From Desulfobacula sp. (GTDB lineage: Bacteria; Desulfobacterota; Desulfobacteria; Desulfobacterales; Desulfobacteraceae), in assembly GCF_030611305.1 (NCBI RefSeq), contig NZ_JAUWQB010000016.1:1-50896 (forward strand): DNA of 50,896 nucleotides, written 5' to 3'. The position numbers and the translations under genes are program-made. The notes beneath the pieces are model-generated. The model was not told the DNA's origin. It ran no database searches and worked only from the letters and a program-made list of their open reading frames with translations. Of this stretch, positions 25,364-50,058 are shown in pieces (positions within the stretch are counted from its first letter, which is position 1; each line of letters starts with the position of its first letter).

Positions 25364-25480
25364 ATCACCCGAAGGTGATAAGATAAGATAATTTAGTTCT
25401 AGTTAATATTTGTATCTAAAAGCCATGAAGGCCTTTTTCTGAGAACAGAAAAAAATCCTTCGTGGCTTTTTTATTTTTGA
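25364..25480 (+). promoter_or_regulatory. Leader attenuator 1 (AAGCCATGAAGGC element)
   Basis: The leader contains a hairpin ATCACC-CGAA-GGTGAT (25364-25379), a 38-nt AT-rich linker, then a long hairpin: AAAAGCCATGAAGG (25418-25431) pairs with 25457-25470 with a single G-U, closed by an inner TTTTTCTG/CAGAAAAA stem, and is followed by TTTTTTATTTTT. This is a full intrinsic terminator ending a few bases before the ribosome site (GAGGA) of the next gene. A near-identical 5' arm occurs in two other leaders (35254-35308 and 35615-35667). It could also end a feo transcript, but the promoter between them favours attenuation. Confidence 0.65.
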
Positions 25481-25487
25481 GGATAAA

Positions 25488-27233
25488 ATGAAGTTTATAA
25501 TTATTTTCATAGTTTTCTTTTTCCCCTGGTCGTTTTCCCAGGCCCATGTAAAACAGATGGAAAAAGATACTGACGGAGACGGTAAGATAGATCAGATTGC
25601 TTTTTTTGATGTTCAAGGCAAGATCAAACGGCTTGAGATCGACAGCAACAAAGACGGCCTCATTGATCGTTATCAATATTATCTGGATGAAAAACTTATC
25701 AGGATTGAAAGAGATACGGATTTTGATCAGAAGATTGACTGTAGGGATAATTATCAATTAGGGAAAAGGATAAAACAAACCCGGATTACCATTGATGATA
25801 AAGTCATTCAGATCACTTTGTTTGATGAAAACGAGCAAGTTTCTTTAATAAAAAAAGATAGTTCCGGCAATGGGGAGTTTGATCTTTTTTACTATTATCA
25901 AGCAGGCAGCCTGATCTTATCCACAAAAGACACCAATGATAACAATAAGATCAATATATGGCAGACATATAAAAACAACAGGCCTTTTGAGCAAAAGGTG
26001 GATGATAATGAAGATGGTAATTTTGAAAGAATTGTATTGTATGACCAAAACGGGGTTCCCCAAAAAAGCCTTCACGACCTTGATGGGGACGACAGTCTGG
26101 AGACATTCCGGTTTTATATCAAGGGCGAGATTTTAAAGCAGCATAAGGATGCCAATCTTGATGGTATAATGGATTCCAAGACTTATTTTGAAAACTCCGT
26201 TCCAATTGAACAGAAAACAGATTCAAACTTTGACGGAAAATTTGATATTTTTACAACCTTTAAAAACAACAGGCCTGTAACCCGGAACAAGGATACGGAT
26301 TTTGATGGAAAGATAGACTGCTTTACCCTGTTTGACCAGGCAGGTTTGGTAAAAGAGATAAAAGAGGATACAAAAAATAGCGGTAATATTGACAGGCTCA
26401 GATTTTTTAAAGATGGAAAGCCCACACGCGTAGAGTATGATTCAGATGGAGATGTTTTCTTAGAAACCAAATCGTATTTTAAAAACGGTAAAATAAGTAT
26501 TCAGACGAAAGATGAAAACAGCGACAAAAAGCCTGATATCAGAATTATTTTCAACTCCAGAGAAGAAAAAATAAAGGTTGAAATGGATACGGATTTTACC
26601 GGGAAAAATGATACCTGGCATTTTTACAAAAACAATGGGCTTGTCAGAACTGAGAAGGATGAAAACAAGAACGGAACAGTTGATCTGGTCATCTGGTATG
26701 ACAAAGGTTCCAGGTCGAAATTGGCAAAGGATACAAATAATAACGGATGTTTTAACATCACCCAGAGCTTTGACAGCCCTGAATGGTCTATGGTTACAGA
26801 ACAGGATATGGATTGTGACAAGAATGTTGAAGCCTGTTTTTTTTATAAAGATGGTGTGCTTAGGGTAAAAGAACTGGATGAAAATAATGATGGTCTTATT
26901 GACCTTAAAGAGTATTTTGATCCAAAGGGAAAAATTGTCAAAAGCATGGAAGATGATGGCTTTACCGGCAGACTCAATCTTGTCTGGTTTTTCGATGACC
27001 TGGAAAATCCGGTCAGGGCGGAAAAAGACAATGATGGAGATGGTAAGGCTGACACATGGTTTTTTTATCATAAAGGCAGGTTGGCAAAAGTAGAAGAAGA
27101 TACAAATAAAGATGGGCTTCCTGATTTGTGGGAACAATACGATGAAGCAGAAATATTAATTAAAAATGAAAAAGACCTGGATTTTGACGGAATGGCTGAT
27201 GTCATAGAGTATCATAGAAGATCATCAGAATGA
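25488..27233 (+). CDS. Secreted protein with about 23 acidic D-x-D-x-D-G calcium-type loops
   Basis: A 581-residue protein. A signal peptide (FIIIFIVFFFPWSFSQA) is followed by tandem units of about 22-25 residues. Each has a DxDxDGxxD loop (DTDGDGKID, DSNKDGLID, DTDFDGKID, DENNDGLID, DTNKDGLPD), then an aromatic strand (xxYF/WF) and a 'KxGK' turn. By eye there are about 23 units to the C-terminus, some with degenerate loops. The pattern resembles thrombospondin type-3/dockerin-like calcium binding, and a periplasmic or surface location is likely. It is first in an operon with exbB-exbD-tonB, so it may interact with a TonB-dependent process. I know of no assigned function. Confidence 0.8.
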   Translation: MKFIIIFIVFFFPWSFSQAHVKQMEKDTDGDGKIDQIAFFDVQGKIKRLEIDSNKDGLIDRYQYYLDEKLIRIERDTDFDQKIDCRDNYQLGKRIKQTRITIDDKVIQITLFDENEQVSLIKKDSSGNGEFDLFYYYQAGSLILSTKDTNDNNKINIWQTYKNNRPFEQKVDDNEDGNFERIVLYDQNGVPQKSLHDLDGDDSLETFRFYIKGEILKQHKDANLDGIMDSKTYFENSVPIEQKTDSNFDGKFDIFTTFKNNRPVTRNKDTDFDGKIDCFTLFDQAGLVKEIKEDTKNSGNIDRLRFFKDGKPTRVEYDSDGDVFLETKSYFKNGKISIQTKDENSDKKPDIRIIFNSREEKIKVEMDTDFTGKNDTWHFYKNNGLVRTEKDENKNGTVDLVIWYDKGSRSKLAKDTNNNGCFNITQSFDSPEWSMVTEQDMDCDKNVEACFFYKDGVLRVKELDENNDGLIDLKEYFDPKGKIVKSMEDDGFTGRLNLVWFFDDLENPVRAEKDNDGDGKADTWFFYHKGRLAKVEEDTNKDGLPDLWEQYDEAEILIKNEKDLDFDGMADVIEYHRRSSE

Positions 27234-27276
27234 TTCATAAAAAAGGTCAATATAATTATCAGGCAGGGAGATTTAA

Positions 27277-27885
27277 ATGGTTGAATTTTTATCAAAAGGC
27301 GGGATGCTGGTAATTCCGATTCTGTTATGTTCGGTTTTTGCCTTGGCTATATTTTTAGAAAGAATGATCAGCTTTGCAAGAATGCGCACTCGCGGCAGGG
27401 AAATTGACCAAAAAGTCGCCTCACTTCTTATGGAGAAAAAAGATGACGAAGCAAAAAGGGCAGCCCAAAACAGTGACTCTCCCATGGGACGTGTGCTTAC
27501 CCAGGCTCTTGAGGTCAAGAACAGGGAGAGGGAAACCCTGGAAACTGTTATTATCAATGCCATTGACAGAGAGGTGCAGAACCTTTCATCATATATCCAG
27601 ACACTTGCCACCATTGGCAATATTGCTCCCCTGCTGGGTCTTCTCGGGACAGTTGTCGGGATGATTAAGGCTTTTATGGTGATTCAGCAGATGGGGGGCA
27701 AGGTTAATGCAGCAGTTCTTGCAGGCGGCATATGGGAAGCTATGCTTACCACAGCTATCGGCCTTGCAGTGGCGCTTCCAACCATGGTTGCCCATAGCTA
27801 CCTTTTAGCCAGGGTGGATAAATATGAAGCAAGACTTCAAAACGGGGCAGTGACATTTATTAAGGCCATTTCCAAAGGAGATTAA
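27277..27885 (+). CDS. exbB: ExbB/TolQ-type proton channel subunit (TonB system 1)
   Basis: A 202-residue MotA/TolQ/ExbB protein with three membrane helices: N-terminal GMLVIPILLCSVFALAIFLE, a central IAPLLGLLGTVVGMIKAF, and a last helix with MLTTAIGLAVALPTMVAHSY. The conserved Thr/Pro-containing helices form the proton path. With ExbD and TonB it turns proton motive force into movement of TonB and powers outer-membrane receptors. GGGAG precedes the ATG. exbD follows after one base. Confidence 0.92.
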   Translation: MVEFLSKGGMLVIPILLCSVFALAIFLERMISFARMRTRGREIDQKVASLLMEKKDDEAKRAAQNSDSPMGRVLTQALEVKNRERETLETVIINAIDREVQNLSSYIQTLATIGNIAPLLGLLGTVVGMIKAFMVIQQMGGKVNAAVLAGGIWEAMLTTAIGLAVALPTMVAHSYLLARVDKYEARLQNGAVTFIKAISKGD

Positions 27886-27886
27886 A

Positions 27887-28294
27887 ATGCTTGTTCATAG
27901 AAAAAGAAAACCTCGTTACCAGATACAGACACCTCTTACATCCTTGATAGATATCATCTTTATGCTGCTTATCTATTTTCTTTTGACCACCAACTTCATA
28001 GTGGATGAAGGCATTAAAATCAAACTTCCCCAGGCAAAATCGGCGCAACCCCAGATCAACAAAGAAATTACCGTTTATGTTGATAAAAACGGTCAGGCAT
28101 TTATAGGGGAGAATAAGGTTCCTGAAGATCTTCTTTTTAAAACATTAAAAGAGATGATAGGCAATAAAAAAGATAAGTTGGTGATTATTAAGGCAGACCG
28201 GACTATTGTGTTGAACAAAGCTGTTAAGGTCATGGACATTGCCAAGGCTGCAGGTGCAGGAAGATTATGCCTTGCAACGGAAAGGAAATTGTAA
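27887..28294 (+). CDS. exbD: ExbD/TolR-type subunit (TonB system 1)
   Basis: A 135-residue protein with one N-terminal helix carrying the essential Asp (PLTSLIDIIFMLLIYFLL, Asp near 24) and a periplasmic domain with IKIKLPQAKS and VIIKADRTI, as in ExbD. Works with the adjacent ExbB and TonB. AAAGGAG overlaps the end of exbB. Confidence 0.93.
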   Translation: MLVHRKRKPRYQIQTPLTSLIDIIFMLLIYFLLTTNFIVDEGIKIKLPQAKSAQPQINKEITVYVDKNGQAFIGENKVPEDLLFKTLKEMIGNKKDKLVIIKADRTIVLNKAVKVMDIAKAAGAGRLCLATERKL

Positions 28295-28297
28295 TCG

Positions 28298-28987
28298 GTG
28301 TATTCTTTACCAGGTGATCAAAGGAGAATAAACTGGCTGTTAAATGGTTTGATAGCGGTCTCGCTAGGAGTCCATGTGTTGATATTTATGCATATGGCAG
28401 GAATTTGCAGGACTGAAGCTTTGACATATATTGAAATCGGTATCAAGGATATTTCAAAACCTGTTGAAAGGCTGATCCCAAGGCCCAGGACCAGACAAAA
28501 CCCAATATATAAAATACCAAAAATGGATACAATCAATATTGCGAAACAAAATATACCCCCTATAAAAATTAACCGGGTGAAGACCAGTCTGTCAGATACT
28601 TTAATGGAAAGTATAAAAGTGCCTGACTTGCCTTTTGTACCGGAGCAATCCAATATCAATATATCGGATTTCAAATCTGACAATGTATCTGATTTTTTAA
28701 CAAAAAATGATTACTTTGACATGTTAAGATTAAAAATAGAAAGCAATAAAAAATATCCTGATACTGCACGGTTAAAATATATTGAAGGACGGGTAGAGAT
28801 AAATTTTATTATAGCCAAAGACGGCCGGATATCTGATTTAAAAATTGTCAAGCCTGCAAGGCACAACAGCCTGAACAAGGCGGCATTAAAGGCGGTAAAA
28901 GATTCTGCTCCTTTTTCTGTGCCGCCGTCAAACCTGTTTAAGGAATCACTTAAAATTGAAATAACAATTGTTTTTGAAATAACATGA
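28298..28987 (+). CDS. tonB: TonB protein (system 1)
   Basis: A 229-residue TonB. One N-terminal helix (LNGLIAVSLGVHVLIFMH) is followed by a short Pro/Lys/Ile-rich linker, rather poor in the usual Pro-Lys repeats, and a C-terminal TonB domain: KKYPDTARLKYIEGRVEINFII, DGRISDLKIVKPA, LNKAALKAVKDSAPF. It starts at a GTG three bases after exbD. It ends 61 bp before the convergent importer operon. Confidence 0.9.
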   Translation: MYSLPGDQRRINWLLNGLIAVSLGVHVLIFMHMAGICRTEALTYIEIGIKDISKPVERLIPRPRTRQNPIYKIPKMDTINIAKQNIPPIKINRVKTSLSDTLMESIKVPDLPFVPEQSNINISDFKSDNVSDFLTKNDYFDMLRLKIESNKKYPDTARLKYIEGRVEINFIIAKDGRISDLKIVKPARHNSLNKAALKAVKDSAPFSVPPSNLFKESLKIEITIVFEIT

Positions 28988-29048: not shown

Positions 29049-29852
29049 TCAAGCCGGTATTGTTTCGTTCCTGTCCAAAGGAGCAGTACTTATTTTATAC
29101 ATTATCACCTTCTCCGTGTCTGTCCCCAAAATATCAAACTCTATATCGTAGATTTTTTTAAGATTTTTTTCATCAATAATTTTCTCTACAGAGCCATAAT
29201 CTATGATTGTACCGTCTTTTATCAATACGATTTTATGCGAAAATTTGATGGCATCATTTGGGTCATGGAGGCTCATAAGCACTGTTAAATTTTTCTCACG
29301 AGCTATGTCTCTAACAATGGTTAATACTTTCACTTTGTTTTTAATATCCAGATGAGCTACAGGTTCATCAAGTAATAAGATCTTCGGTTCTTGCATTAGG
29401 GCCCGGGCAATAAAAGTAAGCTGACGTTCTCCGCCACTGATTTGGGTATATGGTCTTTCAGCAAGTCCCGATATACCTAGTTCGGATAGTATCTTTCTGC
29501 CTTTTTGATAGTCTTCCTGTAAGGGTGATGAAAAAATGGACAAATAGGGTGTCCTGCCCATGACGACAAGATCAAGCACTTTATACGGAAAGCTGTTCTG
29601 ATGATCCTGCGGCACTCCTCCGACAATTTTGGCCAGTTCAGATGACTTAATTGTAGATATTAGTTTGCAGTCAAGATAAATACGCCCTTTTTTCGGATTC
29701 AGCAGTCCATAGATAGATTTAAGAAGTGTGGTCTTCCCTGACCCATTAGGTCCCAGGAGGGATACAACTTCATTTGGTTCTATTTTTAAATTTACGTTCT
29801 TGATCCCGGAATGGTCATTATACATAAAGTGCAAATTATTTATTGTTATCAA
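29049..29852 (-). CDS. ABC importer ATPase, iron-siderophore/B12 type (importer A)
   Basis: A 267-residue ATP-binding subunit of the FecE/BtuD group: Walker A GPNGSGKTTLL near 34, Q-loop GGVPQDHQ, signature ISGGERQLTFIARAL, Walker B ILLLDEP and a switch His in MSLHDPND. The tail is typical of the family (YGSVEKIIDEKNLKKIYDIE). It is last in the minus-strand operon receptor-radical SAM-binding protein-permease-ATPase. The TTG start overlaps the permease stop by three bases. Confidence 0.92.
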   Translation of the reverse strand: MITINNLHFMYNDHSGIKNVNLKIEPNEVVSLLGPNGSGKTTLLKSIYGLLNPKKGRIYLDCKLISTIKSSELAKIVGGVPQDHQNSFPYKVLDLVVMGRTPYLSIFSSPLQEDYQKGRKILSELGISGLAERPYTQISGGERQLTFIARALMQEPKILLLDEPVAHLDIKNKVKVLTIVRDIAREKNLTVLMSLHDPNDAIKFSHKIVLIKDGTIIDYGSVEKIIDEKNLKKIYDIEFDILGTDTEKVIMYKISTAPLDRNETIPA

Positions 29853-30814
29853 TTCCAGCCTCCTGCAACCTTTCGAAGGAGATAGATAAAGTATGGGGCT
29901 GCGACCAATGTGGTAATTATACTTACCGGAATATCATAGGTGGTTAATGTTCTGCATAAGGTGTCAGTTATAAGAAGCAGACTGGCGCCAAGGCCAGCGG
30001 AAGCCGGGATAAGATACTTGTTATCCGGGCCTATCAGGCTTCTTGCCATATGGGGAACAATCAATCCTATCCAGGCAATTATTCCGGTTACTGCAATTAT
30101 CGAGCTGCACATCAATGTGCTTAAGGCGATTACTATCAAGCGATCACGATTAATGTTTACCCCCAGCAATTTGGCATCGTTGCTACCCATGGAGAGCACA
30201 TTAAGCCTGTAGCGCATTAAATATAATATGGAGAAACCAATAACCAGCCCCGGTAAAGCCATCAGGATATCGTCCCAGCAGGATTTATGAAAACCACCCA
30301 TCATCCAGAAGACAATTCCGGAAAGACGGTAAGGATCCGAGGCAAGCTTAATGATCGAAAGCAGGGCAGTAAATACCCCGGCTACAATAACCCCGGAAAG
30401 CACAGTAGTCACCGTGGAGAATTCACCCCTTACCCTGGCTAAAGAACATGCAAGACCAACAGCTATAAAACTGAAAACAAGTGCTGAAGCGGGAATCAGA
30501 TACATGCAGTTGGGCAAGAATAACATTGCCAGGGCAGCCCCGAATGCCGCCCCTTGGGATTGCCCCAAAATATATGGGGCAACAAGGGGATTACGCAAAC
30601 ATGATTGTAAAGAAGCCCCTGCCACTGAAAGCGCAACCCCGGCCATCATGCATAAAATAATCCGTGGCGCTCTTATATTAAGCAGAACAAAAAAATCCTC
30701 CGAAGAAAGAGAGGTGATAGTCAAAGAATATCTACCCAGAAACAATACCATTAAAGCAATCGGAAAAGGTGACAAGGTTAGATAAAAGCTGTTGGTTTTG
30801 ATAGATGCATTCAC
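29849..30814 (-). CDS. FecCD/BtuC-type permease (importer A)
   Basis: About 321 residues with ten or so membrane helices. Family motifs are LRAPRIILCMMAGVALSVAGASLQ-like (split by the first helix), NPLVAPYILGQSQGAAFGA, VLSGVIVAGVF and GLIVPHMARSLIGPDNKYLIP. It moves a metal chelate or corrinoid-like ligand across the inner membrane as a dimer. The frame opens at a TTG (30829); the GTG at 30814 follows GGAG and is preferred. The ATPase gene overlaps its end. Confidence 0.9.
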   Translation of the reverse strand: MNASIKTNSFYLTLSPFPIALMVLFLGRYSLTITSLSSEDFFVLLNIRAPRIILCMMAGVALSVAGASLQSCLRNPLVAPYILGQSQGAAFGAALAMLFLPNCMYLIPASALVFSFIAVGLACSLARVRGEFSTVTTVLSGVIVAGVFTALLSIIKLASDPYRLSGIVFWMMGGFHKSCWDDILMALPGLVIGFSILYLMRYRLNVLSMGSNDAKLLGVNINRDRLIVIALSTLMCSSIIAVTGIIAWIGLIVPHMARSLIGPDNKYLIPASAGLGASLLLITDTLCRTLTTYDIPVSIITTLVAAPYFIYLLRKVAGGWN

Positions 30815-30865
30815 TTCATTTTGCTCCAAATTGATTTCAAATCGACTTTGATTTAGTTTTCCTCG

Positions 30866-31945
30866 TCATGGAATGTAAATCTCATACTTATCAACAAGAT
30901 CGGTAAAAAAATTATTAGCGCCGTACATTACCCGGAATATTTCGTTTCCTTGTTTTTCAATATCCAGATTTCGAAAATGATCCGGATAGGCTGTTTTAGC
31001 TATCTGCATAATATTGATCACAGTGGTTGAAGGATACCAGCCGCACCAACCGATTATAACATTATATACTCTCTTGTTTTTAACCGCTTTTACCTTCTGC
31101 CATTGCTGGTAATCAAGAAGTTCCCGAGGTGATATCCTGCTTAAAATATGAACAAAGACGATTTCTGGTTTCCAGATCATTACTTGTTCAGGATTTAATT
31201 GATACCAGACCTCACTGTTTTTAACTGCTGTATTGACTACACCGGCGGTATCCAAAGGATCGGGATGCCCATTGGCACTAATTGCACCGGGGACCATTGC
31301 CGATACTATGATCCCCTTACGTCTGTTGTCTTTGGGGATTCGGTCGGTAAAAACCGTTATTCCCGAAAGCTTACCCTCCAAATACTGTACCAGATAATCG
31401 GCTCGTTCCTGCTTATTAAGTATTCGGCCAATCAAGCTTATTAATTTAAAAGAAAATTTTCCCTTCCCGGCAGGAGGATTAATCCTTACACAAACGACAG
31501 GTATCCCTGTTCTTTTCTGTAGACTGTCGGCCATATCAGCCCGGTTGGCATCACCAAAGATAATATCAGTCTTCAGTTTGACCAGTTCTTCCGTGTTCAC
31601 GGCATCCATCATCCTTCCCGTGGCAGGCAAACTCATAATCTGTGGAAACAATTCAGTAAAAACAGGGTCCGCCTTCATACTGCCGTCTATCCCCACAATC
31701 TTATTTTGCTCTCCAAGGGCAAATATTGTCCGGGTGGCTTCCGGCCACAAACTGACAATACGATTAATCCTTGCAGGTATATGCACGGTTCTGCCCGCCT
31801 GATCCGTAATTATAATTTTTTCGCTTTCCGAAGAATGTGCCACAAAAGGCAGCAAAGCTGCTGCCAGCATGAATACAACCATCATCCCGGCAGCCAAAAC
31901 CACGTTTTTAATTGTCAATTGCTTTGGTTTTATTATGGTTCTCAT
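30866..31945 (-). CDS. Periplasmic helical-backbone binding protein (importer A)
   Basis: A 359-residue BtuF/FepB-type binding protein. The N-terminal signal/anchor helix (VVLAAGMMVVFMLAAALL) is followed by IIITDQAGRTVHIPARINRIVSLWPEATRTIFALG, in which 'RIVSL.P..T' is the family hallmark, and FGDANRADM and WKPEIVFVH. No lipobox is obvious. It should pass the ligand from the receptor to the permease. Its ATG overlaps the radical SAM stop by four bases (ATGA). Larger than average, with a long C-terminal helix and Trp-rich WCGWYPSTT segment that may shape a distinctive pocket. Confidence 0.9.
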   Translation of the reverse strand: MRTIIKPKQLTIKNVVLAAGMMVVFMLAAALLPFVAHSSESEKIIITDQAGRTVHIPARINRIVSLWPEATRTIFALGEQNKIVGIDGSMKADPVFTELFPQIMSLPATGRMMDAVNTEELVKLKTDIIFGDANRADMADSLQKRTGIPVVCVRINPPAGKGKFSFKLISLIGRILNKQERADYLVQYLEGKLSGITVFTDRIPKDNRRKGIIVSAMVPGAISANGHPDPLDTAGVVNTAVKNSEVWYQLNPEQVMIWKPEIVFVHILSRISPRELLDYQQWQKVKAVKNKRVYNVIIGWCGWYPSTTVINIMQIAKTAYPDHFRNLDIEKQGNEIFRVMYGANNFFTDLVDKYEIYIP

Positions 31946-33003
31946 TTATTTTTATCTTTGTTAAAAAGGTCCGGCTTCATTCCCAGTCCTTTAATAATTC
32001 TGCATGTAAGAGGGAGCCGGTCGCTGTATTCCAGGTTATAGACTGTTTTAGTAACTATCTCTGAGGATTTCATACCCTTAAATTGCATTCTCGGTCTGTG
32101 CACATGGGGTCCCAGATGGATAGCCCTGTTTGCGCCGGCCATAACCCATATAGGCAAGAACTGCGGGTCATTCATCATTCCTCCAAAAGAAATGTCAACA
32201 TCTCTAAGTATCAATCTGGCTACAGCTCCTACCTTAGCCACCTCCATTGTTAAAGCAGTCTTGTGATTACTCATTCCCGCTCCCGGTATCGGTCTGAGAC
32301 CGGTTACAGGAAAATGGCTTAAGTTCTGAAAGTTGTTAAGCCAAAAAATATGATCAACATAATTTTGATAACTGCTGCCCAGGCCAACCATCATGACACT
32401 TGTCAAGCCAATACCAACTTCATCAATCTCACTGGCAAGTTTCTTTCTGGCATCCAGACTGTCTCCTGGCTTAGTTGCAGCAAAGACCTGCGGGTTACAG
32501 GTTTCAAGGGAACAACAGATCTCTTTTACCCCTAACTCCTTTAATTCAATCAGATCATCCTTACAAAGAGAAGGCCCGACATTTATCCATATGCCTAGAT
32601 TATTGTCAACTTCTTTTATTGCCTTTACAGCCGCGATTATTTTTGTTGAAGCATCGTTTGCTCCGGTACCTCCGCCAATTTCCACCATTTTTACATGACA
32701 TTCGGAAACAAACTTTGCAGCTAAGCGAACTTCCTGAATGGTTAACGGTTCGGAAAATGATGATTTTCCATCCTTCAACGACCTGCTGCAATATTTACAC
32801 GGGGGATCAATGGTGCAATCTGTCAATGTGCCGATAAACCCGTCGAACTTGAAAGTATCCCCCACCTCTTGACCTCTTACCTTAGAGGCTGTTTTAAAAA
32901 GCGCCAATAATTTGTCCATAGTGGTTGCTTCATTTAAAAGCAGCAGCGCCTCTTCAGGGGATACGGATTCTTTTTCTGCTTTGGTTAATATCTTTTCATA
33001 CAT
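31942..33003 (-). CDS. Radical SAM enzyme with HmdB-type CX5CX2C cluster motif
   Basis: A 353-residue BioB/HydE/HmdB-like radical SAM barrel. The cluster motif is TDCTIDPPCKYCSRS (near residues 61-75), Cys-x5-Cys-x2-Cys rather than the standard Cys-x3-Cys-x2-Cys. This spacing is the hallmark of HmdB, which helps build the guanylylpyridinol cofactor of methanogen [Fe]-hydrogenase. Other features are VEIGGGTGANDAS, ICCSLETCNP, LRPIPGAGMSNH and a BATS-like C-terminus. No Hmd hydrogenase or other hmd gene is in the window. It is flanked by importer genes (ATGA overlap with the binding protein; receptor upstream by 23 bp). It probably modifies or helps use the imported compound, which is inferred. 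AAAGGAGA precedes the ATG. Confidence 0.8.
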   Translation of the reverse strand: MYEKILTKAEKESVSPEEALLLLNEATTMDKLLALFKTASKVRGQEVGDTFKFDGFIGTLTDCTIDPPCKYCSRSLKDGKSSFSEPLTIQEVRLAAKFVSECHVKMVEIGGGTGANDASTKIIAAVKAIKEVDNNLGIWINVGPSLCKDDLIELKELGVKEICCSLETCNPQVFAATKPGDSLDARKKLASEIDEVGIGLTSVMMVGLGSSYQNYVDHIFWLNNFQNLSHFPVTGLRPIPGAGMSNHKTALTMEVAKVGAVARLILRDVDISFGGMMNDPQFLPIWVMAGANRAIHLGPHVHRPRMQFKGMKSSEIVTKTVYNLEYSDRLPLTCRIIKGLGMKPDLFNKDKNK

Positions 33004-33026: not shown

Positions 33027-35024
33027 TTAAAATTTTACGGTTAATGATGCACTAATCAGACGTCCCGGCGTTTTATATAAATCCGAGATATCGTATCCCT
33101 TATCAAGCAGATTTTCACACTCAAGGCTGAACTCCGCATGTTTAAAGATCTCTTTTGTGATCTTAATGTCAACAGTCCAGTAATCATCCAGCCTTGTTTC
33201 TTCTGAATTTTCTTGGTCAACATACATCTCATCCGTATAACGCAGCCGGACATCGGCTTTAAACAGATCAGGATTATTATAAATTACTCCCAAACTGAAT
33301 TTGTTTTCAGGGGTATAAGAAAGGTTATTTCCTACTACTGACTGATCAACGTCATTTTTTTCAATAGTGGATTCATTAAAGGTATAGCTTGACTGGCATG
33401 ATATTTCATCGGTGATATCATACCGCAACTCAGCCTCAATTCCACGCATTTGCACTTCGGAAATATTGTCAAATTGCACTTTATTTACCCCAATGGTGCG
33501 TGTACTGATAAAATCATCACCCTGAGCTTCATAAAGCGTGAGCTTAACTAAAAGATTATCAAAAAAGTTGTGGTCCAGGCCAACCTCGTATGAGATCATG
33601 GTTTCCGGCTTAAGATCGGGATTACCCCAAATTTGCTTGGGGCCACGAAGCATATATGTATACAGGCGAGGCAGGCTGGGAGCCTGAAAAGCTTTGCCAA
33701 TAGATGCTCTCAATGTTGTGTTTCCGGTAGCATGATAAACAAGCCCAAGTTTTGGATTAAATGAATCCCAGGACTTATCATCGTAAGAAATATCTATAGG
33801 GTTTAAAGGATTTGTGTCAATGAGTGAACCGTCATAGCTTTCAAACCAGTCCTGACGTGCTCCCAGATTAACCAGGAAACTATCATTGAAAAAGGCTGCT
33901 TCATCCTGCAAATAGAGGGAATAATAACGCTGTTTTCCTTTAGTTTGATCAAACCGGACTACTGTTTGGTAAACTCCCTTTTTATCAATACCGCTTTGCT
34001 TAAACTCAAATCCTGCGGTTAAGATATTCCATTCAACCAAAGGATATGATGCCTGCATTGAAGCTCCGTAGGTCGGCACATCGAAATCCTCTACTAAATT
34101 GAGGTAATTATAGAAAGGAGGTTTGTCAAACTCAACATCCCAATCTTCATTATGTATGTAGGATACAAATCTAAGCCCCAACCCGTTTTTTATATCTCTG
34201 TTAAAGGTGATATTTCCTCTGTTGATCTCACGATCAAAGTTTGAATATTTTGTGCCCCTTCCTATGTTGGATTGAGAATGCGACAGGTTAAGTGAAAGAG
34301 TGGAAATTTCATCGAAATCATAACTTAAACGAGAGTCAAAATTGCTGTTCTCATAATCATTCATGATATTATATGGTTGCTCCTCTTTGGCAGCCACGTA
34401 GCCATCCGTAGTTGCATATTTCCCGGATAACCCATAGCCGAACCGGCCATTTTTCCCTCCAACATTAAAATAGGTTGATCGAGTATTCAAACTGCCGTAG
34501 CTAATCCTTGCAACCGCCTCAAAAGGTTTTTCCGGTTTTTTAGTAATAAAATTAATTACACCGCCCATGGCGCTTGAGCCATACAGACTTGAGCTGGGGC
34601 CACGGACAATCTCAATCCTTTCTATATTATCGGTTGGTATCTGACCCCATTCAACCCAACCGTGCCAATTACCATTAACAGGCACGCCATCAACAAGGAT
34701 TAATGTTTTGCCCTGATCGCTAACTCCTCTCAAGCTAACCTGGCGGCCACGACTATCACAGCGATGGCTGCCCATTATGTCAATTCCGGCGGTATTTCTT
34801 AAAAGCTCGTCAGCGGTGTCCGCAGTTGACCCTTTTATCTCTTCCTGATCAATAATTGTTACACTGGCCGGCGCATCTTTTAAGGATGATTCCTTACGAG
34901 TAGCTGTTACCACAATATCATCCAGCCGGACCGTGCTTGCATCTTCCTGTTTCTGGTTTGCCAAACAAACCGTGTTTAATAAAAAGAGTATGCTCGCACA
35001 TAAAATAATGACAATCTTATTCAT
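33027..35024 (-). CDS. TonB-dependent outer-membrane receptor (importer A)
   Basis: A 665-residue BtuB/FhuE-like receptor. A signal peptide (IILCASILFLLNTVCLA) is followed by the TonB box region DIVVTATRKESSLKDAP, a plug domain (LLRNTAGIDIMGSH, GVSDQGKTLILVDGVPVNG, IERIEIVRGPSSSLYGSSAMGG) and a 22-strand barrel ending in a C-terminal Phe (SASLTVKF). The ATG at 35024 follows AAAGGAGGAG. It is first in the importer A operon, behind a leader of about 340 nt containing an attenuator. The ligand is unknown; BtuB-like receptors take corrinoids or metal chelates. Confidence 0.94.
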   Translation of the reverse strand: MNKIVIILCASILFLLNTVCLANQKQEDASTVRLDDIVVTATRKESSLKDAPASVTIIDQEEIKGSTADTADELLRNTAGIDIMGSHRCDSRGRQVSLRGVSDQGKTLILVDGVPVNGNWHGWVEWGQIPTDNIERIEIVRGPSSSLYGSSAMGGVINFITKKPEKPFEAVARISYGSLNTRSTYFNVGGKNGRFGYGLSGKYATTDGYVAAKEEQPYNIMNDYENSNFDSRLSYDFDEISTLSLNLSHSQSNIGRGTKYSNFDREINRGNITFNRDIKNGLGLRFVSYIHNEDWDVEFDKPPFYNYLNLVEDFDVPTYGASMQASYPLVEWNILTAGFEFKQSGIDKKGVYQTVVRFDQTKGKQRYYSLYLQDEAAFFNDSFLVNLGARQDWFESYDGSLIDTNPLNPIDISYDDKSWDSFNPKLGLVYHATGNTTLRASIGKAFQAPSLPRLYTYMLRGPKQIWGNPDLKPETMISYEVGLDHNFFDNLLVKLTLYEAQGDDFISTRTIGVNKVQFDNISEVQMRGIEAELRYDITDEISCQSSYTFNESTIEKNDVDQSVVGNNLSYTPENKFSLGVIYNNPDLFKADVRLRYTDEMYVDQENSEETRLDDYWTVDIKITKEIFKHAEFSLECENLLDKGYDISDLYKTPGRLISASLTVKF

Positions 35025-35111
35025 CAATCTCCTCCTTTAATCATTTTGTCAGTACAATAAAGATATTTCCCAGAACCGGATGCATTGACGAGCTATTACC
35101 ACAGTGTTATA

Positions 35112-35191
35112 AGGAGGGTGTAAGCTCCTGAATATACGGGGCTTCCCCGGAAGACAGCATGTTTCTTTGATCGGATACTGTGCTGTCTTCC
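35112..35191. other. Strongly structured segment in the receptor A leader
   Basis: Three adjacent hairpins: AGGAG/CTCCT (35112-35129), CGGGG-CTT-CCCCG (35137-35149), and an 11-bp perfect stem 35149-35159/35181-35191 (core GAAGACAGC). The second and third share base 35149. On the minus strand this lies between attenuator 3 and the receptor start, inside the predicted leader. On the plus strand the last hairpin is followed by TATTTTTAT and could end a transcript. I looked for a cobalamin riboswitch core and could not align one. It may be a second regulatory RNA element. Confidence 0.4.
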
Positions 35192-35253
35192 TATTTTTAT
35201 CTTAATTTTGTACTTTGACAGTTTTTTATAATTTGTTATGTAAAATCTCCCAA

Positions 35254-35308
35254 ATAAAAAAAGCCAAGAGTCCTAAATAGAATTCTTTCTATCAGGCCTT
35301 CTTGGCTT
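35254..35308 (-). promoter_or_regulatory. Leader attenuator 3 (AAGCCAAGAAGGC element) of importer A
   Basis: On the minus strand AAGCCAAGAAGGCC pairs through AAGCCAAGA with TCTTGGCTT (arms 35300-35308 and 35261-35269), with an inner ATAGAA/TTCTAT stem, and is followed by seven T and then ATTT: a complete intrinsic terminator. About 35 nt upstream lies a TGCAAT-CGAA-ATTGCA hairpin (35341-35356). No minus-strand gene lies between this site and 42593, so there is no upstream transcript to end other than the receptor leader itself. The 5' arm keeps GAAGGC although its partner does not fully pair with it. Confidence 0.65.
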
Positions 35309-35366
35309 ATATTCAAATCTTGATCTTAAATTTTAACTACTGCAATTTCGATTGCAATTTTCAATG

Positions 35367-35396
35367 ATCATACTTTAATCTGATACCCCTTGTCAA
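35367..35396 (-). promoter_or_regulatory. Promoter of the importer A operon
   Basis: Minus strand TTGACA (35391-35396), 18-bp spacer, TATGAT (35367-35372). It directly adjoins direct-repeat copy L (35415-35446), so it may derive from the end of a former insertion sequence. Confidence 0.6.
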
Positions 35397-35567: not shown

Positions 35568-35667
35568 TTGTCAGAAAATTCTGACAAAAAGCACTGATAG
35601 ATAATAATAAATTTAAAGCCATGAAGGCTGACAGAAGTTCTGTTTGCCTTCATGGCTTTTTTGTTTT
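35568..35667 (+). promoter_or_regulatory. Leader attenuator 2 (AAGCCATGAAGGC element) of importer B
   Basis: Hairpin TTGTCAG-AAAATT-CTGACAA (35568-35587), an AT-rich linker, then AAAGCCATGAAGGC (35615-35628) perfectly paired with 35646-35659, an inner ACAG/CTGT stem, and TTTTGTTTT. It lies about 50 nt before the receptor start. All genes for 6.7 kb to the left are on the minus strand, so this plus-strand terminator can only act on the leader of the receptor operon. That makes attenuation the best explanation. Confidence 0.7.
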
Positions 35668-35718: not shown

Positions 35719-37872
35719 ATGATGAGGAAAAGAAAAATATTTATAATTATATTGATAATATTCGGGCTTGTCTCTAATAATTTAACCTGGGCAGATTATC
35801 AAAATCAACAGGAAGTCATTAAGCTTAAGGAAATTGTTGTAACAGCGCAGGTGGAAGACAGGAAGTTAGTGGCAACTCCTGCCAGTATCAGCCTTATAAC
35901 TGCTGCTGAAATCCAGGAAATGGGAGCAAAAACCATTGCCCAGATTATTGAAAATATTCCAGGTATGGTGCATGAAAATTCTACCAGAGACTATATAACA
36001 GTTCGGGGTAATAGAAGTTCGCAGTCCTCAGGGGTTCTGGTACTTGTAAATGGTGTTCCGGCAAATTCAGGAGTGAGCGGCTATACTGAATATGATGCTA
36101 TCCCTGTATCTGATATTGAAACCATTGAAGTTTTACGTTCATCAGGAAGCATTATCTATGGTCCTGATGCTGCACGCGGTGTCATTAATATCATTACAAA
36201 AAAAGGAGAAAGCAAATCTCCTAAAACACGGATTTCTGCCACCTATGGTTCATGGGATACCAAGGAAGTATCTGCCGGTATAAGCGGCGGAATTAATAAG
36301 TGGAATTATGCCTTTGGAGCCTCTTTTTTGGACACAGACGGATACGCAGATGATAATAAAAAAAGAGAGGCTGTGCGCATGGATATAGGATACAGTTTTT
36401 CAGAATCAACTGATATTAGTTATAATATAGCCTGGCATGAAGTAGATTATGATACAATCTATGGCAGGACAAAGTGGCAAATTGATAACTTTCGGAATGA
36501 TTCCATATTCCCCACATCAGCAACTAATGACACATTGATTCATTATCGGGAAAACAGTGATGAAAGTCTCTCGCAGAGCCTTAAACTCTCGCACAATGCA
36601 GAGAATTTTTTCTTAACCGGCTTTCTCTGTTACGATGATACTGATCATGTTTATGATTATCTGAAGTACCGGCTGAATCCTGCTTACAATAAGACCAGCT
36701 CCTACTATGATTACAGAGAGGACAGAGACCAGAAAAGAAGTTTAGCACGACTTTTTGGGGGATATCATTTTGATTTTGATAAAATTGCTTACACACCTGC
36801 TTTTGGTATTGATTTTGAAAAAACAGATTTTGATCAGAAAAAATCATATCCATGGTCACCTGTGCCCAATTCAGCTTCACAACTAACTGCCATTGCCAAA
36901 GGTGATCTGAATACACAAAAAAAGAGACTGGGAGTTTTTACAAGTAATGAATTCCTTTTTGGAGAAAAATGGGAGCTTAACTTAGATTTAAGGTTTGATA
37001 ATGTCAAATACGATATTAAAAACGCACAGCCTAAACATGTCAGCAATGAAGACAGTGACTACAGCTGGAAGATAGCACCGGCATGGCATCCTTGCCCGGA
37101 TTCAACAATTTACACCTCAGTGTCAAAATCGTTCTGGTATCCTGTTCTTATTTATTACAACTATGCCATGCAATATGGTGACACTGAAAACAGACCTGAA
37201 GATTTAAAACCTGAAGAATACCTTACCTTTGAACTTGGATACAAACATTATTTTAATTCAAAGTTAAGCCTGGCTCTTGCAGGATATTATATGAAAACAG
37301 AAGATAAATATTTATCGCTTTATGATGAGTCTGACTGGAAAGGCTATCAAAATGTTGGAAAGGCAGAACATAAAGGAATTGAAATAGAAGCGTCAGGACG
37401 AATCAATTCTCTCATGGGGTACCGTTTCTCAGGAGCATGGCAGGATGTAAAATGGGATGATGCAAATTTTAGAGCATATGTTTGGGGTGCAACTCCTGCT
37501 TCCGATACCAGACAGAATGTTGACATATCAGGCAAACAGGTTCCCCAAATTCCTGAGTATACAGCATCCTTTGGTCTTGATTTTTATTTTTGGGATTATT
37601 TCAAACTCAGTAATGACGTAAATTATATTGGCTCGCGCCATATTGATGTATTGAATCGTTATAAAACAGATGATCATTTTACTTTTGATACAATGCTATC
37701 CTTTACACGGAAAAATTATAAATTTTGGATTCTCGGATCAAACCTTTTTAATAAAGAATCTGAAAGTATGTTTAACGAGACAGGAAAAAGAAATGCTGAT
37801 GGTACACCTGCTCACCTGTATTATCCGGTGGATGGCAGGTATATTGAAGCAGGAGTTACAATAACTTTCTAA
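35719..37872 (+). CDS. TonB-dependent outer-membrane receptor (importer B)
   Basis: A 717-residue receptor. A signal peptide (IFIIILIIFGLVSNNLTWA) is followed by TonB-box-like LKEIVVTAQVEDRKLVATP, plug motifs (IAQIIENIPGMV, GVLVLVNGVPANSG, DIETIEVLRSSGSIIYGPDAARG), and a barrel ending with a C-terminal Phe (AGVTITF). AAGGAA precedes ATG ATG. It belongs to the same broad BtuB/CirA group as receptor A but is clearly different in sequence. It is followed after one base by its binding-protein gene. Ligand unknown. Confidence 0.94.
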   Translation: MMRKRKIFIIILIIFGLVSNNLTWADYQNQQEVIKLKEIVVTAQVEDRKLVATPASISLITAAEIQEMGAKTIAQIIENIPGMVHENSTRDYITVRGNRSSQSSGVLVLVNGVPANSGVSGYTEYDAIPVSDIETIEVLRSSGSIIYGPDAARGVINIITKKGESKSPKTRISATYGSWDTKEVSAGISGGINKWNYAFGASFLDTDGYADDNKKREAVRMDIGYSFSESTDISYNIAWHEVDYDTIYGRTKWQIDNFRNDSIFPTSATNDTLIHYRENSDESLSQSLKLSHNAENFFLTGFLCYDDTDHVYDYLKYRLNPAYNKTSSYYDYREDRDQKRSLARLFGGYHFDFDKIAYTPAFGIDFEKTDFDQKKSYPWSPVPNSASQLTAIAKGDLNTQKKRLGVFTSNEFLFGEKWELNLDLRFDNVKYDIKNAQPKHVSNEDSDYSWKIAPAWHPCPDSTIYTSVSKSFWYPVLIYYNYAMQYGDTENRPEDLKPEEYLTFELGYKHYFNSKLSLALAGYYMKTEDKYLSLYDESDWKGYQNVGKAEHKGIEIEASGRINSLMGYRFSGAWQDVKWDDANFRAYVWGATPASDTRQNVDISGKQVPQIPEYTASFGLDFYFWDYFKLSNDVNYIGSRHIDVLNRYKTDDHFTFDTMLSFTRKNYKFWILGSNLFNKESESMFNETGKRNADGTPAHLYYPVDGRYIEAGVTITF

Positions 37873-37873
37873 T

Positions 37874-38941
37874 ATGACACGTTTTATTACAAAAACAGGT
37901 TTTAGTTTGATAAGTGTTTTTATATTGTTGTGCCTGAGTGTTTCAGGCACAACAGCAGTTGGTCAGACAAAAATTGTTGAAATCCAGGATGCCAATGGGA
38001 ACTTTGTACAAGTACAATTGCCGGTTCAAAGAATAGTAGTCTTAACATCTGATGCTTTAGAGATTGTATGTGCTCTTAAAGCAGACAACCTTATAACAGG
38101 TGTATTTACCGGCATTTCAAGAGAAGCCCTTTTTGAAGCCAAATTAAAGCAAAAACCAAAAGTCGGAGACTGGAGAGAAGTTAATTACGAACTTTTGGCT
38201 GAGTTAAAACCTGATATTGTATTATGTTATGCACGATCTCCAGGGAAAAATCTTGAAAAAAAACTTAACCCATTTGGTATTAAGGTAATACGGCTTAATT
38301 TTTTTAAACTGGAAACTTTAGATCAGGAGATAAAAACACTTGGTTTGATTTTAGGAAAAGCAGAGCAAGCAGAAGCGCTTATAAACTGGCATCAAAACAG
38401 GCTTCAGTTTTTACAAGAAAAATTAAAGGGGATTAAAAATCCTCCTGATATCTATATTGAAGGAGATTCCAGATATCATACAGCAGGACCCGGTTCAGGC
38501 GGAGACAAAATGTGTACCCTTGCAGGCGGCAATAATATTGCAAAAAATCTTTCAATACCTTATCCGGAAATAACCTGTGAATGGATTTTAAAAAACAACC
38601 CGGAGGTGATTATTAAAGTAGCCACCCGCGGTTCCTATAACATCAAAGCCAAGAACATCAAAACAGATATAAAAAGCAAAACCAGACTGGTTGCTTTAAA
38701 AACAATACAGGAAGAAATCATGGTACGTCCTGCCTGGAATCATATTCAGGCTGTAAAACAGAAAAGAGTTCATGTAATAACAAATGAAATCTGGGCAGGT
38801 CCCAGAGCTGTAATCGGAGCAAGTTATTTGGCAAAGTGGTTTTTCCCGGAAAAGTTGAAACATTTTAACCCTGAAGAGATCCATAAAGAATATATTAATA
38901 ATTTCCATAATATTAAATTCCAGGGAAAGTATGCATACTGA
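37874..38941 (+). CDS. Periplasmic helical-backbone binding protein (importer B)
   Basis: A 355-residue BtuF/FecB-type protein. A signal peptide (LISVFILLCLSVSGTTAVG) is followed by VEIQDANGNFVQVQLPVQRIVVLTSDALEIVCAL. The family 'R-IVVL' strand is present, and LLAELKPDIVLCYARSPG follows. EGDSRYHTAGPGSGGDKMCTLAGGNNI is typical of family members binding Fe-chelates or corrinoids (quoted here in part as a motif of G/D/H residues near 200-222). It ends inside the start of the permease gene (11-bp overlap). Confidence 0.9.
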   Translation: MTRFITKTGFSLISVFILLCLSVSGTTAVGQTKIVEIQDANGNFVQVQLPVQRIVVLTSDALEIVCALKADNLITGVFTGISREALFEAKLKQKPKVGDWREVNYELLAELKPDIVLCYARSPGKNLEKKLNPFGIKVIRLNFFKLETLDQEIKTLGLILGKAEQAEALINWHQNRLQFLQEKLKGIKNPPDIYIEGDSRYHTAGPGSGGDKMCTLAGGNNIAKNLSIPYPEITCEWILKNNPEVIIKVATRGSYNIKAKNIKTDIKSKTRLVALKTIQEEIMVRPAWNHIQAVKQKRVHVITNEIWAGPRAVIGASYLAKWFFPEKLKHFNPEEIHKEYINNFHNIKFQGKYAY

Positions 38942-39959
38942 AAAAATATATACAGAGTATAAAAAATTTAATGCGAAAAAAGTATTTTATATACTTATTT
39001 TTACTATAATTTTAGGAATTATAGCTTTAGGAGCACTTTTGCATGGACCATCATCCATTGGATTTAAAAATTCATTTACAGCGCTTTTTAAAGAAACCGG
39101 CATTGCCAGTGCAATTGTATGGGAGCTCAGGCTGCCTCGTATCATTATGGCAATTTTAACAGGATGCGGGCTTTCCATTGCCGGAACTGTATTCCAGGCA
39201 ATACTTAAAAATCCCCTGGCATCCCCCTATACTCTCGGTATTGCGTCTGGTGCCGGATTTGGCGCTGTGCTTGCAATTATTTTTGGAGGCAGTTTGTACA
39301 GTGAATATCTTATTGCAGGATCAGCCTTTTTCTTTGCCATGCTCTCTTCTTTAATTATTCTTTCAATTGCCAGATTAAAGGACCCAAGCCCTGAGACCAT
39401 GATACTCGCAGGTATTGCAATCATGTTTCTCTTTTCCTCTTTAAGTTCTTTTTTCCAATACATTGGAACAATGGAACAGGTTCAGGAGATTGTATTCTGG
39501 TTCTTTGGATCACTTTCAAAAACAGGCTGGAAAGAAATTAGTATTGTCTCTGTTATGATATTTGTTCCCATACCTTTTTTAATAAAATCATCATGGAAAT
39601 TAAATCTTCTTGCTACAGGGGATGAATCTGCAAAAGCTCTGGGCGTTAACACTACAAAGCTCAGAATGCAGGGAATGATTTTTGCCTCTTTAATAACATC
39701 TGCCTGTATATGTTTTACAGGTGTAATCGGCTTTGTAGGACTTGTGTCGCCTCATATAGGCAGAATGCTGGTCGGTTCAGATCATAGATTTCTAATTCCA
39801 ACGTCTGCTTTGATCGGTACCATCCTTGTTCTTGTTGCAGATACCTTTGGCAGAATATTATGGGCACCCCAGGTCATCCCCATAGGGATTGTCACTTCAT
39901 TTATCGGAGTTCCTTTCTTTTTTTATTTATTAATAAGGCGAACAAGGGGGTACTGGTAA
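38931..39959 (+). CDS. FecCD/BtuC-type permease (importer B)
   Basis: A 342-residue permease with about ten helices: LRLPRIIMAILTGCGLSIAG, NPLASPYTLGIASGAGFGAV, MILAGIAIMFLFSSLSSF, and the late GLVSPHIGRMLVGSDHRFLIP motif of the family. AGGGAAAG precedes the ATG within the end of the binding-protein gene. The stop overlaps the ATPase start (TAATG). Confidence 0.92.
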   Translation: MHTEKIYTEYKKFNAKKVFYILIFTIILGIIALGALLHGPSSIGFKNSFTALFKETGIASAIVWELRLPRIIMAILTGCGLSIAGTVFQAILKNPLASPYTLGIASGAGFGAVLAIIFGGSLYSEYLIAGSAFFFAMLSSLIILSIARLKDPSPETMILAGIAIMFLFSSLSSFFQYIGTMEQVQEIVFWFFGSLSKTGWKEISIVSVMIFVPIPFLIKSSWKLNLLATGDESAKALGVNTTKLRMQGMIFASLITSACICFTGVIGFVGLVSPHIGRMLVGSDHRFLIPTSALIGTILVLVADTFGRILWAPQVIPIGIVTSFIGVPFFFYLLIRRTRGYW

Positions 39960-40807
39960 TGTTGAAAGTTCATGGGTTAAAATTTAAATACAAAGACAGA
40001 GATATACTTAAAAAAATAGAAATTCAGATCAATAAAGGGGAAATCTTAAGTATTCTGGGACCTAACGGGACTGGTAAAACAACCCTTTTAAAATGTATTG
40101 CCGGGATAATAAAACCTCAAAAAGGCTCTTTTTCCATTGGCAGCAAAAATATGTCGCATATTAAAAGAAACAGTCTTGCCAAACAAATTAGCTATGTTCC
40201 CCAGAGTTCTCCCTCAAAATTTCCCATTACTGTATTTGAAGCTGTTCTGATGGGAAGAAGCCCTTATATTATGTGGAGACCATCAGAAAAAGATTTAAAA
40301 ATCGTAGTAAATGTTCTCAAATTTCTTAAACTTGAAGAATTTGCTTCAAAAAATTTTGATCAGCTAAGCGGAGGAGAAAAACAAAAGGTTTTAATAGCCA
40401 GAGCAGTGGCACAGGATACTGAGTATTTGCTCATGGATGAACCCACCAGCAACCTTGATTTAAAACATCAGATGGAAATTATGGAGGTAATTTCCAATAT
40501 GGTCAAAACAAAAAATGTGGGTGCTGTTTTTGCAATGCATGATCTGAATCTTGCATCCAGATTTTCCGATAGAATAATAATGCTAAGCAGAGGAGAGGTG
40601 TTTTGCACAGGCAGGCCTGAAGAAGTTATAACCATTGAAAATATAAAGAGAGTTTATGGGGTTAATGCAACAATAAAAAATAATAATGGTATTTTGTATG
40701 TATTCCCGGATAAGCCGGTTAATAACAAAAATAGTAACTTGATTAATAAACCACCTAATAATCAGGCACACTCGGAAGTATTCTATGATTCTAAAATAAA
40801 ACGATAA
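39959..40807 (+). CDS. ABC importer ATPase (importer B)
   Basis: A 282-residue FecE/BtuD-type ATPase: Walker A GPNGTGKTTLLK near 37, Q-loop ISYVPQSS, signature LSGGEKQKVLIARAVA, Walker B YLLMDEP, switch His in AMHDLNLAS, and the C-terminal IENIKRVYGVNA. The open frame extends left to 39860, but the ATG at 39959 overlapping the permease stop and preceded by AAGGGGG is the real start. The last 30 or so residues are Asn/Lys-rich and variable. Confidence 0.93.
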   Translation: MLKVHGLKFKYKDRDILKKIEIQINKGEILSILGPNGTGKTTLLKCIAGIIKPQKGSFSIGSKNMSHIKRNSLAKQISYVPQSSPSKFPITVFEAVLMGRSPYIMWRPSEKDLKIVVNVLKFLKLEEFASKNFDQLSGGEKQKVLIARAVAQDTEYLLMDEPTSNLDLKHQMEIMEVISNMVKTKNVGAVFAMHDLNLASRFSDRIIMLSRGEVFCTGRPEEVITIENIKRVYGVNATIKNNNGILYVFPDKPVNNKNSNLINKPPNNQAHSEVFYDSKIKR

Positions 40808-40829
40808 TTCAAATAAAAGGAAAAAAACA

Positions 40830-47187: not shown

Positions 47188-47600
47188 TTTGAAATTTGAT
47201 CTTCAGGGTCAGCCTGCAGAGAAATTTGATTCAATCCGGCCTGTCTGATTCTGTCTAAAACTTTAAAAAGATGTTGATAGGAAATACTTTTATCTGCAAA
47301 AAGAAGAACGTTTGTTTTTTCTTCTTTTTTTGCCTTCTGTTCAAGAATCCGGGTTAAATGTTCCAGGTCAACCAGCTCTTTGTTGACAAAGATTAAGTAG
47401 TCTTTATTTATGGTAACTGACAGAATTGTATCTTTTTCAGAGTTACCAACAGAGGATTCAGGCAGAGTGACGGGCATGCCTTTGTGCACGGCCATGGACA
47501 GCATGGTATAGATAAACACAACCAGAAGAAGGAAAACAACATCAATCAAAGGCAGCATTTCGATCCTGGGTTTATTATTTTCAGGTAAGCGTATTTTCAT
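47184..47600 (-). CDS. exbD: ExbD/TolR-type subunit (TonB system 2)
   Basis: A 138-residue ExbD. A single helix has the essential Asp (IEMLPLIDVVFLLLVVFIYT, Asp near 22), then the periplasmic part with MPVTLPESSVGN and VLLFADKSISYQHLFKVLD. Overlaps exbB and tonB by four bases each (ATGA), so the three are translationally coupled. Confidence 0.93.
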   Translation of the reverse strand: MKIRLPENNKPRIEMLPLIDVVFLLLVVFIYTMLSMAVHKGMPVTLPESSVGNSEKDTILSVTINKDYLIFVNKELVDLEHLTRILEQKAKKEEKTNVLLFADKSISYQHLFKVLDRIRQAGLNQISLQADPEDQISK

Positions 47601-50054: not shown

Positions 50055-50058
50055 TTTT

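Follow-up and report, generated by a model that had tools for sequence, protein, structure and literature searches.

Operon structure

What does a radical S-adenosylmethionine (SAM) enzyme resembling HmdB do inside an operon for a TonB-dependent importer? The question is raised by a gene on a contig of Desulfobacula sp. (NZ_JAUWQB010000016.1, assembly GCF_030611305.1), of which positions 1 to 50,896 were analysed; this whole stretch is called the window here. The host bacterium is probably an anaerobe. The gene encodes a protein of 353 aa, P0001, and lies between the genes for a receptor and a periplasmic binding protein. The answer favoured here, tentatively, is that an enzyme of the HmdB/HydE/BioB/PylB group may have been recruited to this position in a TonB-ABC (ATP-binding cassette) importer of metal chelates, where it would act on the imported ligand. 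The operon comprises the following features.

33027-35024, minus strand: TonB-dependent receptor TonB1; ATG at 35024 behind AAAGGAGGAGA (the list of open reading frames (ORFs) opens at a TTG, 35027)
31942-33003, minus strand: HmdB-like radical SAM protein P0001, from ORF and family models; start behind AAAGGAGAT
32788-32817, minus strand: codons of C63-x5-C69-x2-C72 (CTIDPPCKYC), the predicted [4Fe-4S]/SAM site, computed from the ORF
30866-31945, minus strand: periplasmic binding protein SBP1 (PF01497), overlapping the radical SAM gene by ATGA
29849-30829, minus strand: FecCD-type permease
29049-29852, minus strand: ABC ATPase, with a 4-bp overlap with the permease ORF

The gene order is thus TonB1 receptor, radical SAM enzyme, SBP1, FecCD permease and ATPase, all on the minus strand; the plus-strand reading of 31942-33003 is interrupted by stops. 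The initial annotation had named no strand; the ORF that it placed here, locked by ATGA to a binding-protein gene and 23 bp from a TonB receptor gene, is present as described. The ATGA at 31945-31942 is common to the radical SAM stop (TGA) and the SBP1 start (ATG), and the 23 bp lie between the end of TonB1 (33027) and the start of the radical SAM gene (33003). The radical SAM gene has a clear Shine-Dalgarno sequence; none is evident in the 25 bases inspected before the SBP1 start. Because SBP1 lacks a clear Shine-Dalgarno sequence of its own and shares the ATGA, it is probably translated by coupling to the radical SAM gene.

Family assignment of P0001

P0001 scores 45.3 bits against Pfam Radical_SAM (PF04055; cut-off 29.5) and carries the three-cysteine motif, which places it in the superfamily. 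An NCBIfam scan at E 0.01 matched 19 families. The best curated one is HmdB/HcgA (TIGR03957), with 158.6 bits over model positions 4-296 of 317; its cut-off is 320.9. Scores on the other relevant models (cut-offs in brackets) are 68.5 for BioB (225), 49.1 for PylB (348.2) and 23.7 for HydE (254.6). As a control, the PylB of the same genome scores 504.9 bits on the PylB model and 97.1 on the HmdB model.

The Cys-x5-Cys-x2-Cys spacing pointed out in the initial annotation is confirmed as Cys63-x5-Cys69-x2-Cys72. Ten proteins were compared: P0001; PylB, MqnE and MqnC from its own genome; and, from plasmids, two HydE, three BioB and one ThiH. CX5CX2C occurs in P0001 alone and CX3CX2C in the other nine. 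C63, C69 and C72 align with the cluster cysteines of these relatives, and the two extra residues fall within the cluster loop. SAM-site residues are present: E167 belongs to an ETxN motif shared with PylB and HydE (ThiH has ET), and the MVGLG strand is found too. P0001 lacks the cysteines in the columns that we take to be the auxiliary-cluster positions of BioB; both aligned proteobacterial BioBs have them. Since they are missing, sulfur insertion of the biotin synthase kind is disfavoured.

In the literature, CX5CX2C is described as unique to HcgA/HmdB (PMC10100467) and universal among HcgA proteins (PMC3087415), and is named as the HmdB motif (PMC4389238). One paper presents Mvol_1414, a methanogen radical SAM protein with the HmdB motif and no functional annotation (PMC9431491), and another places BioB, PylB, HmdB and HydE in one subgroup (PMC11736057). 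The enzymes with a CX5CX2C loop found in the open-access literature are either HcgA/HmdB or unassigned.

P0001 shares with the HmdB/HcgA of methanogens its spacing, its best curated score and its subgroup. It differs in reaching only half the cut-off, in its genome and in its place in a TonB/ABC importer operon. Hmd (PF03201) and HmdC (TIGR03958) each have no match in the genome, which is 97% complete, HcgB-F not having been searched for; both models are positive in the control, Methanocaldococcus jannaschii. The absence of Hmd claimed in the initial annotation therefore extends to the genome. The likeness to HmdB stands in the spacing and in the curated scores, where HmdB leads the other families clearly; assignment as an HmdB/HcgA equivalog is not supported, given the score and the lack of Hmd and HmdC. 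P0001 is an HmdB-like orphan and not a demonstrated HmdB. HydE, PylB, BioB and MqnE/MqnC are also akin to it in sequence, with aligned SAM-site residues, but the sampled members have CX3CX2C and P0001 falls far under their cut-offs. BioB is rejected on its score, the spacing, the missing auxiliary cysteines and a position outside the BioB clade (below), and HydE on its score and the CX3CX2C spacing.

The tree was built from nine proteins, HcgA sequences not among them. The branch of P0001 is long (1.97 changes per column) and falls outside the clade of three BioBs (clade support 99/97); the grouping of P0001 with PylB and HydE is weakly supported (82/85). In the approximately unbiased test, neither a position as sister to HydE (p 0.172) nor one as sister to the BioBs (p 0.235) is rejected. 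Of the phylogenetic placement proposed as a check on the initial annotation, separation from the sampled BioBs and the distinct cluster-loop spacing stood; separation from a sister position to HydE or BioB did not.

Distribution in relatives

P0001 was searched for at E 1e-20 in the family, 1e-20 in the phylum, 1e-18 in the order and 1e-16 in the sister family to which genome G418 belongs; these samples overlap, more divergent relatives could fall beyond the limits, and other phyla were not covered. Viral (IMG/VR), plasmid (E 1e-8) and phage (E 1e-5) sequences gave no relative. When the plasmid limit was relaxed to E up to 1, 22 records matched, the 12 listed being HydE or BioB. Scanned for the pattern E[IV]GGGTGAN, genome contigs gave a single match, L010, which encodes a methyltransferase of a SAR202 genome; it is a chance match and says nothing on the distribution of P0001.

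The binding protein, too, lacks a close orthologue. At E 1e-25, SBP1 is matched in 18 of 86 family genomes, its own included, and apart from itself the two top matches have 29% and 31% identity; at 1e-40 in the phylum only its own genome is matched (1/390). TonB1 is matched in 3 of 26 genomes of the genus at 1e-60, again including its own, with a best identity of 34%. The receptor-radical SAM-importer operon looks new to this lineage; base composition gives no clear sign of foreign origin.

The slot upstream of the binding protein

For each of the 19 further SBP1-like matches, the flanking DNA (18 regions, L040-L057) was compared; its ORFs of at least 90 aa were mapped at E 1e-6 against five radical SAM references and the proteins of the window. 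The closest upstream gene was computed for 10 of the 19 loci and read off the map for the remainder. None of the ORFs adjoining the binding protein at the 19 loci matches a radical SAM reference or has CX2-6CX2C near its start. At L056, a CX3CX2C radical SAM protein is encoded 1.5 kb downstream on the opposite strand, and another CX3CX2C ORF lies further away.

Enzyme genes directly upstream of the binding protein occur at three loci. Two of these, L050 and L040, encode SAM methyltransferases, which match Pfam methyltransferase domains. L050 has a receptor gene (PF00593) truncated at the contig end and then, after 398 bp, the methyltransferase gene, which overlaps the binding-protein gene by ATGA; a FecCD permease gene follows. 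At L040 the order is methyltransferase, binding protein, FecCD permease and ATPase, and a 20-bp overlap between the first two genes exists only for the longest ORF. The third is a PdxA-like gene at L041 (5906-6928, minus strand), 26 bp upstream of the binding protein. A ligand-modifying enzyme is mildly favoured because two of the 19 importers have a SAM methyltransferase upstream of the binding protein. This slot gives the best indication that the radical SAM enzyme is no random guest, and it rests on two loci.

Cargo of the importer

The best family of TonB1 is the heme receptor TIGR01785 (250.2 bits, below the cut-off of 316.85); its closest solved chains are the colicin I and enterobactin receptors. 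TonB1 has no histidine between the FQAP and NPDL boxes, where a histidine is presumably the mark of heme receptors. With the score below cut-off, heme is thought an unlikely cargo. A heme-uptake and heme-opening system was likewise rejected: no HemN/HutW-type family is among the 19 matches of P0001.

The solved chain closest to SBP1 is the putative iron-binding protein 2etv, with HI1472 third, and that closest to the permease is HI1471. We take HI1472/HI1471 to be the molybdate/tungstate importer MolA/MolB; both matches are remote, however, and do not fix the cargo. In one related region (L042) the importer is followed by a regulator with helix-turn-helix and PBP_like domains, the latter presumably linked to molybdate. 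Molybdate or tungstate is only a hint from these resemblances. Together with the metal-related genes around the operon (listed below), these matches lead us to conclude that the cargo would be a metal chelate of some kind.

Function of the radical SAM enzyme

In the favoured reading, the enzyme would be produced together with the importer and remain in the cytoplasm. On arrival of the metal-ligand complex, the 5'-deoxyadenosyl radical would take a hydrogen from the organic ligand, which would then be rearranged or broken, so that the metal is freed or the ligand made usable. We infer every step beyond gene order and motif.

ChuW and HutW, which act in anaerobic heme degradation, are kin of HmuW. 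HmuW, the established precedent, is a radical SAM enzyme that opens heme anaerobically, and its gene belongs to an operon for heme uptake (PMC10404700). In both systems a radical SAM gene stands in an uptake operon, and HmuW itself acts on an imported metal-ligand complex; the logic would here be carried out by another radical SAM subgroup. HmuW, in contrast, is a class C radical SAM methyltransferase, a type absent from the 19 NCBIfam matches of P0001, and the present receptor differs from that of a heme system in both its score and its missing histidine.

Several points weigh against this reading. The precedent of HmuW belongs to another radical SAM class, and HcgA, the nearest relative, builds a pyridinol instead of breaking a ligand (PMC10100467). 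The matches of receptor, binding protein and permease do not fix the cargo. P0001 was found in one of 86 family, one of 395 phylum and one of 389 order genomes, its own each time, and in none of the 36 genomes of the sister family, a sample without a positive control genome. The single-sequence structure prediction of P0001 (mean predicted local distance difference test score (pLDDT) 40.2) is too low to use. Within the slot, only three of 19 loci have an enzyme gene and only two a SAM-dependent one; at the other 16 the upstream neighbour is a receptor, TonB or divergent gene, or there is no gene close by. The two methyltransferases share only 22% identity, L040 has no recognised receptor beside its methyltransferase, and a later ATG there, behind GAGAGGA and 10 bp past the methyltransferase stop, may be the true start of the binding protein.

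The initial annotation had suggested that the imported compound may be modified on arrival; the two methyltransferase-bearing importers lend this some support. It had also held that a linkage to the importer confined to this genome would count against it, and within the family, order and phylum samples the linkage is so confined, other phyla lying outside the search. Titles and abstracts in the open-access literature, which leaves most subscription journals outside, yielded no BioB- or HmdB-type enzyme in an uptake operon.

A wider proposition, and a more doubtful one, is that HmdB-type radical chemistry also serves uptake: the enzyme would open or rebuild an imported metallophore, perhaps a heterocyclic iron or molybdenum/tungsten chelate, as one of several interchangeable SAM-dependent enzymes of the slot. 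HmdB-type chemistry has so far been characterised only in the synthesis of the iron-guanylylpyridinol (FeGP) cofactor. According to PMC10100467, HcgA (=HmdB) forms the pyridinol precursor of this cofactor from a small compound that is still unknown. An importer-locked homologue would offer an independent route to the chemistry of the subgroup, and its substrate may be traced via the imported compound. If true, the known case (heme) of oxygen-free radical SAM dismantling of imported metal ligands would be widened.

Among the alternatives, the one that survives best, though it too appears unlikely, is that the enzyme supplies a cofactor or metal ligand for use inside the cell, its gene sharing regulation with metal import only because that cofactor needs the metal. 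HcgA, HydE, PylB and BioB are all enzymes of cofactor or amino acid synthesis. The operon also lies in a region of metal homeostasis: its surroundings include NicO, DUF1007, a regulator of the DtxR/MntR type, FeoA, FeoB, two ExbB-ExbD-TonB sets and YedE, and there are three FecCD-type importers. The production of a cofactor precursor by HcgA (PMC10100467) fits this alternative as well. The ATGA overlap, however, is tighter than co-regulation requires, and the operon contains no other cofactor gene.

Less probable again seems the second suggestion of the initial annotation, in which the enzyme makes a metal chelator for secretion and for re-import by the same operon; such a chelator would be small and might resemble a pyridinol. 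HcgA makes 6-carboxymethyl-5-methyl-4-hydroxy-2-pyridinol from a small precursor (PMC10100467), TonB1 is closest to receptors of the siderophore/heme type, and the opine zincophore clusters (staphylopine, pseudopaline) join biosynthesis genes with TonB receptors and/or FecCD importers (PMC7438024). The described clusters, however, encode a nicotianamine-like synthase, an opine dehydrogenase and an efflux system, and no counterpart of these was recognised in the scanned ORFs of the present region; in the characterised zincophore clusters the efflux gene is of the EamA or MFS type (PMC7438024). The operon and its scanned neighbours contain no recognised exporter, ligase, non-ribosomal peptide synthetase or second biosynthetic gene; no EamA, MFS or MatE exporter or multi-gene biosynthetic cluster was found among the scanned window ORFs, some of which have no family, the rest of the genome not having been searched.

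Chance insertion of a horizontally acquired radical SAM gene, functionally unconnected to the importer, is the least probable: neither the gene nor a close SBP1 orthologue (best 31% in the family) was found in the searched relatives, and the linkage was seen once, but the gene has a proper Shine-Dalgarno sequence and 23-bp and 4-bp-overlap junctions, SBP1 has no clear Shine-Dalgarno sequence, and in two relatives a SAM enzyme gene immediately precedes that of the binding protein.

Leader and repeated hairpin

The operon is preceded by a structured leader, of which one hairpin is a member of a repeated terminator-like element.

35367-35396, minus strand: promoter-like site TTGACA-18-TATGAT (11 of 12) at the head of the TonB1-radical SAM leader
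35256-35313, minus strand: leader hairpin AAGCCAAGAAGGC...CTTGGCTTTTTTT, a member of the repeated element
35028-35230, minus strand: another structured part of the leader, ahead of TonB1 (fold z-score -3.7, not equalled by any of 200 shuffles)
35615-35659, plus strand: second hairpin copy in the window
25418-25470, plus strand: third hairpin copy in the window

Promoter-like sites number 20 in the region, against 19.0 expected by chance. The stretch CACAGTATCCGATCAAAG is common to the TonB1 leader and the leader of the methyltransferase-SBP operon in L012. Nothing in the window scores up to the gathering cut-off of any Rfam family. A match of IhtA over the leader hairpin (29.8 bits, gathering 76, E 0.0029) was taken for chance, as were two further weak Rfam matches below cut-off.

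The terminator-like hairpin, AAGCCANGAAGGC...TTCNTGGCTTTTTT, stands upstream of TonB1, TonB2, the gene for a 581-aa protein and the TonB2 homologue of G418. Outside the window, copies are found at L009 6650-6716 (minus), L040 4971 (plus), L056 5118 (plus), L058 8086 (minus) and L059 7347 (minus). The 5' arm is present in two of the 19 SBP1-like loci (L012/L040 and L028/L056) and upstream of both non-self TonB1-like matches (L032/L058 and L033/L059); a match to it on a plasmid (L039) was taken for chance. The hairpin occurs in leaders of TonB-receptor and importer genes of several genera, with its 5' arm conserved; ahead of several copies lie a promoter-like TTGACA site and another hairpin, which varies. 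TTGACAA lies about 85-130 bases before the arm in all five aligned leaders.

When eight copies are aligned, pairing holds in 90.4% of the cells, compared with 24-58% if the partner is slid; the copies were selected by a match to the 5' arm, which limits the weight of this count. One pair covaries clearly, being altered on both sides in four sequences, and the covariation score was reached by none of 500 shuffles; the number of pairs changed on both sides (1) was reached by 375 of 500. The repeated hairpin is possibly an undescribed attenuator or small RNA.

Neighbouring genes

Further gene groups of the window are listed here.

25488-28987, plus strand: the 581-aa acidic repeat protein, ExbB, ExbD and TonB; homologues stand beside SBP1-like importers in related genomes
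35719-42505, plus strand: divergent second importer operon with TonB2, SBP2, FecCD2, ATPase2, a TPR protein and a DUF2117 protein
46435-50895, minus strand: third importer set with binding protein, FecCD permease, ATPase, ExbB, ExbD and TonB

Proteins like the acidic repeat protein (25488-27233, plus strand), of about 540-615 aa and with about 40% identity, are encoded next to ExbB and TonB genes, alongside SBP1-like importers, in L042, L043, L045 and L048. An operon similar to the second importer operon is found in G418, a genome in which P0001 has no match.

In two bacterial genomes, both of one order, the last gene of a TonB/ABC importer operon encodes a DUF2117 (PF09890) protein: at 41393-42505 (plus strand) here, and at L008 17794-18855 (minus strand). 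The family is described as archaeal, and its model is positive in M. jannaschii and M. acetivorans; in the phylum sample it occurs in two of 395 genomes. Against solved structures, no sequence relative of the protein was found (5 matches, E 0.29-0.99), and its single-sequence structure model (mean pLDDT 32.6) is unusable. The one open-access paper found to mention DUF2117 does not, by title and abstract, deal with its function.

The genome itself (L004) carries PylB, the control protein above, at 504.9 bits. The gene beside it looks like PylC, which we take to point to pyrrolysine use.

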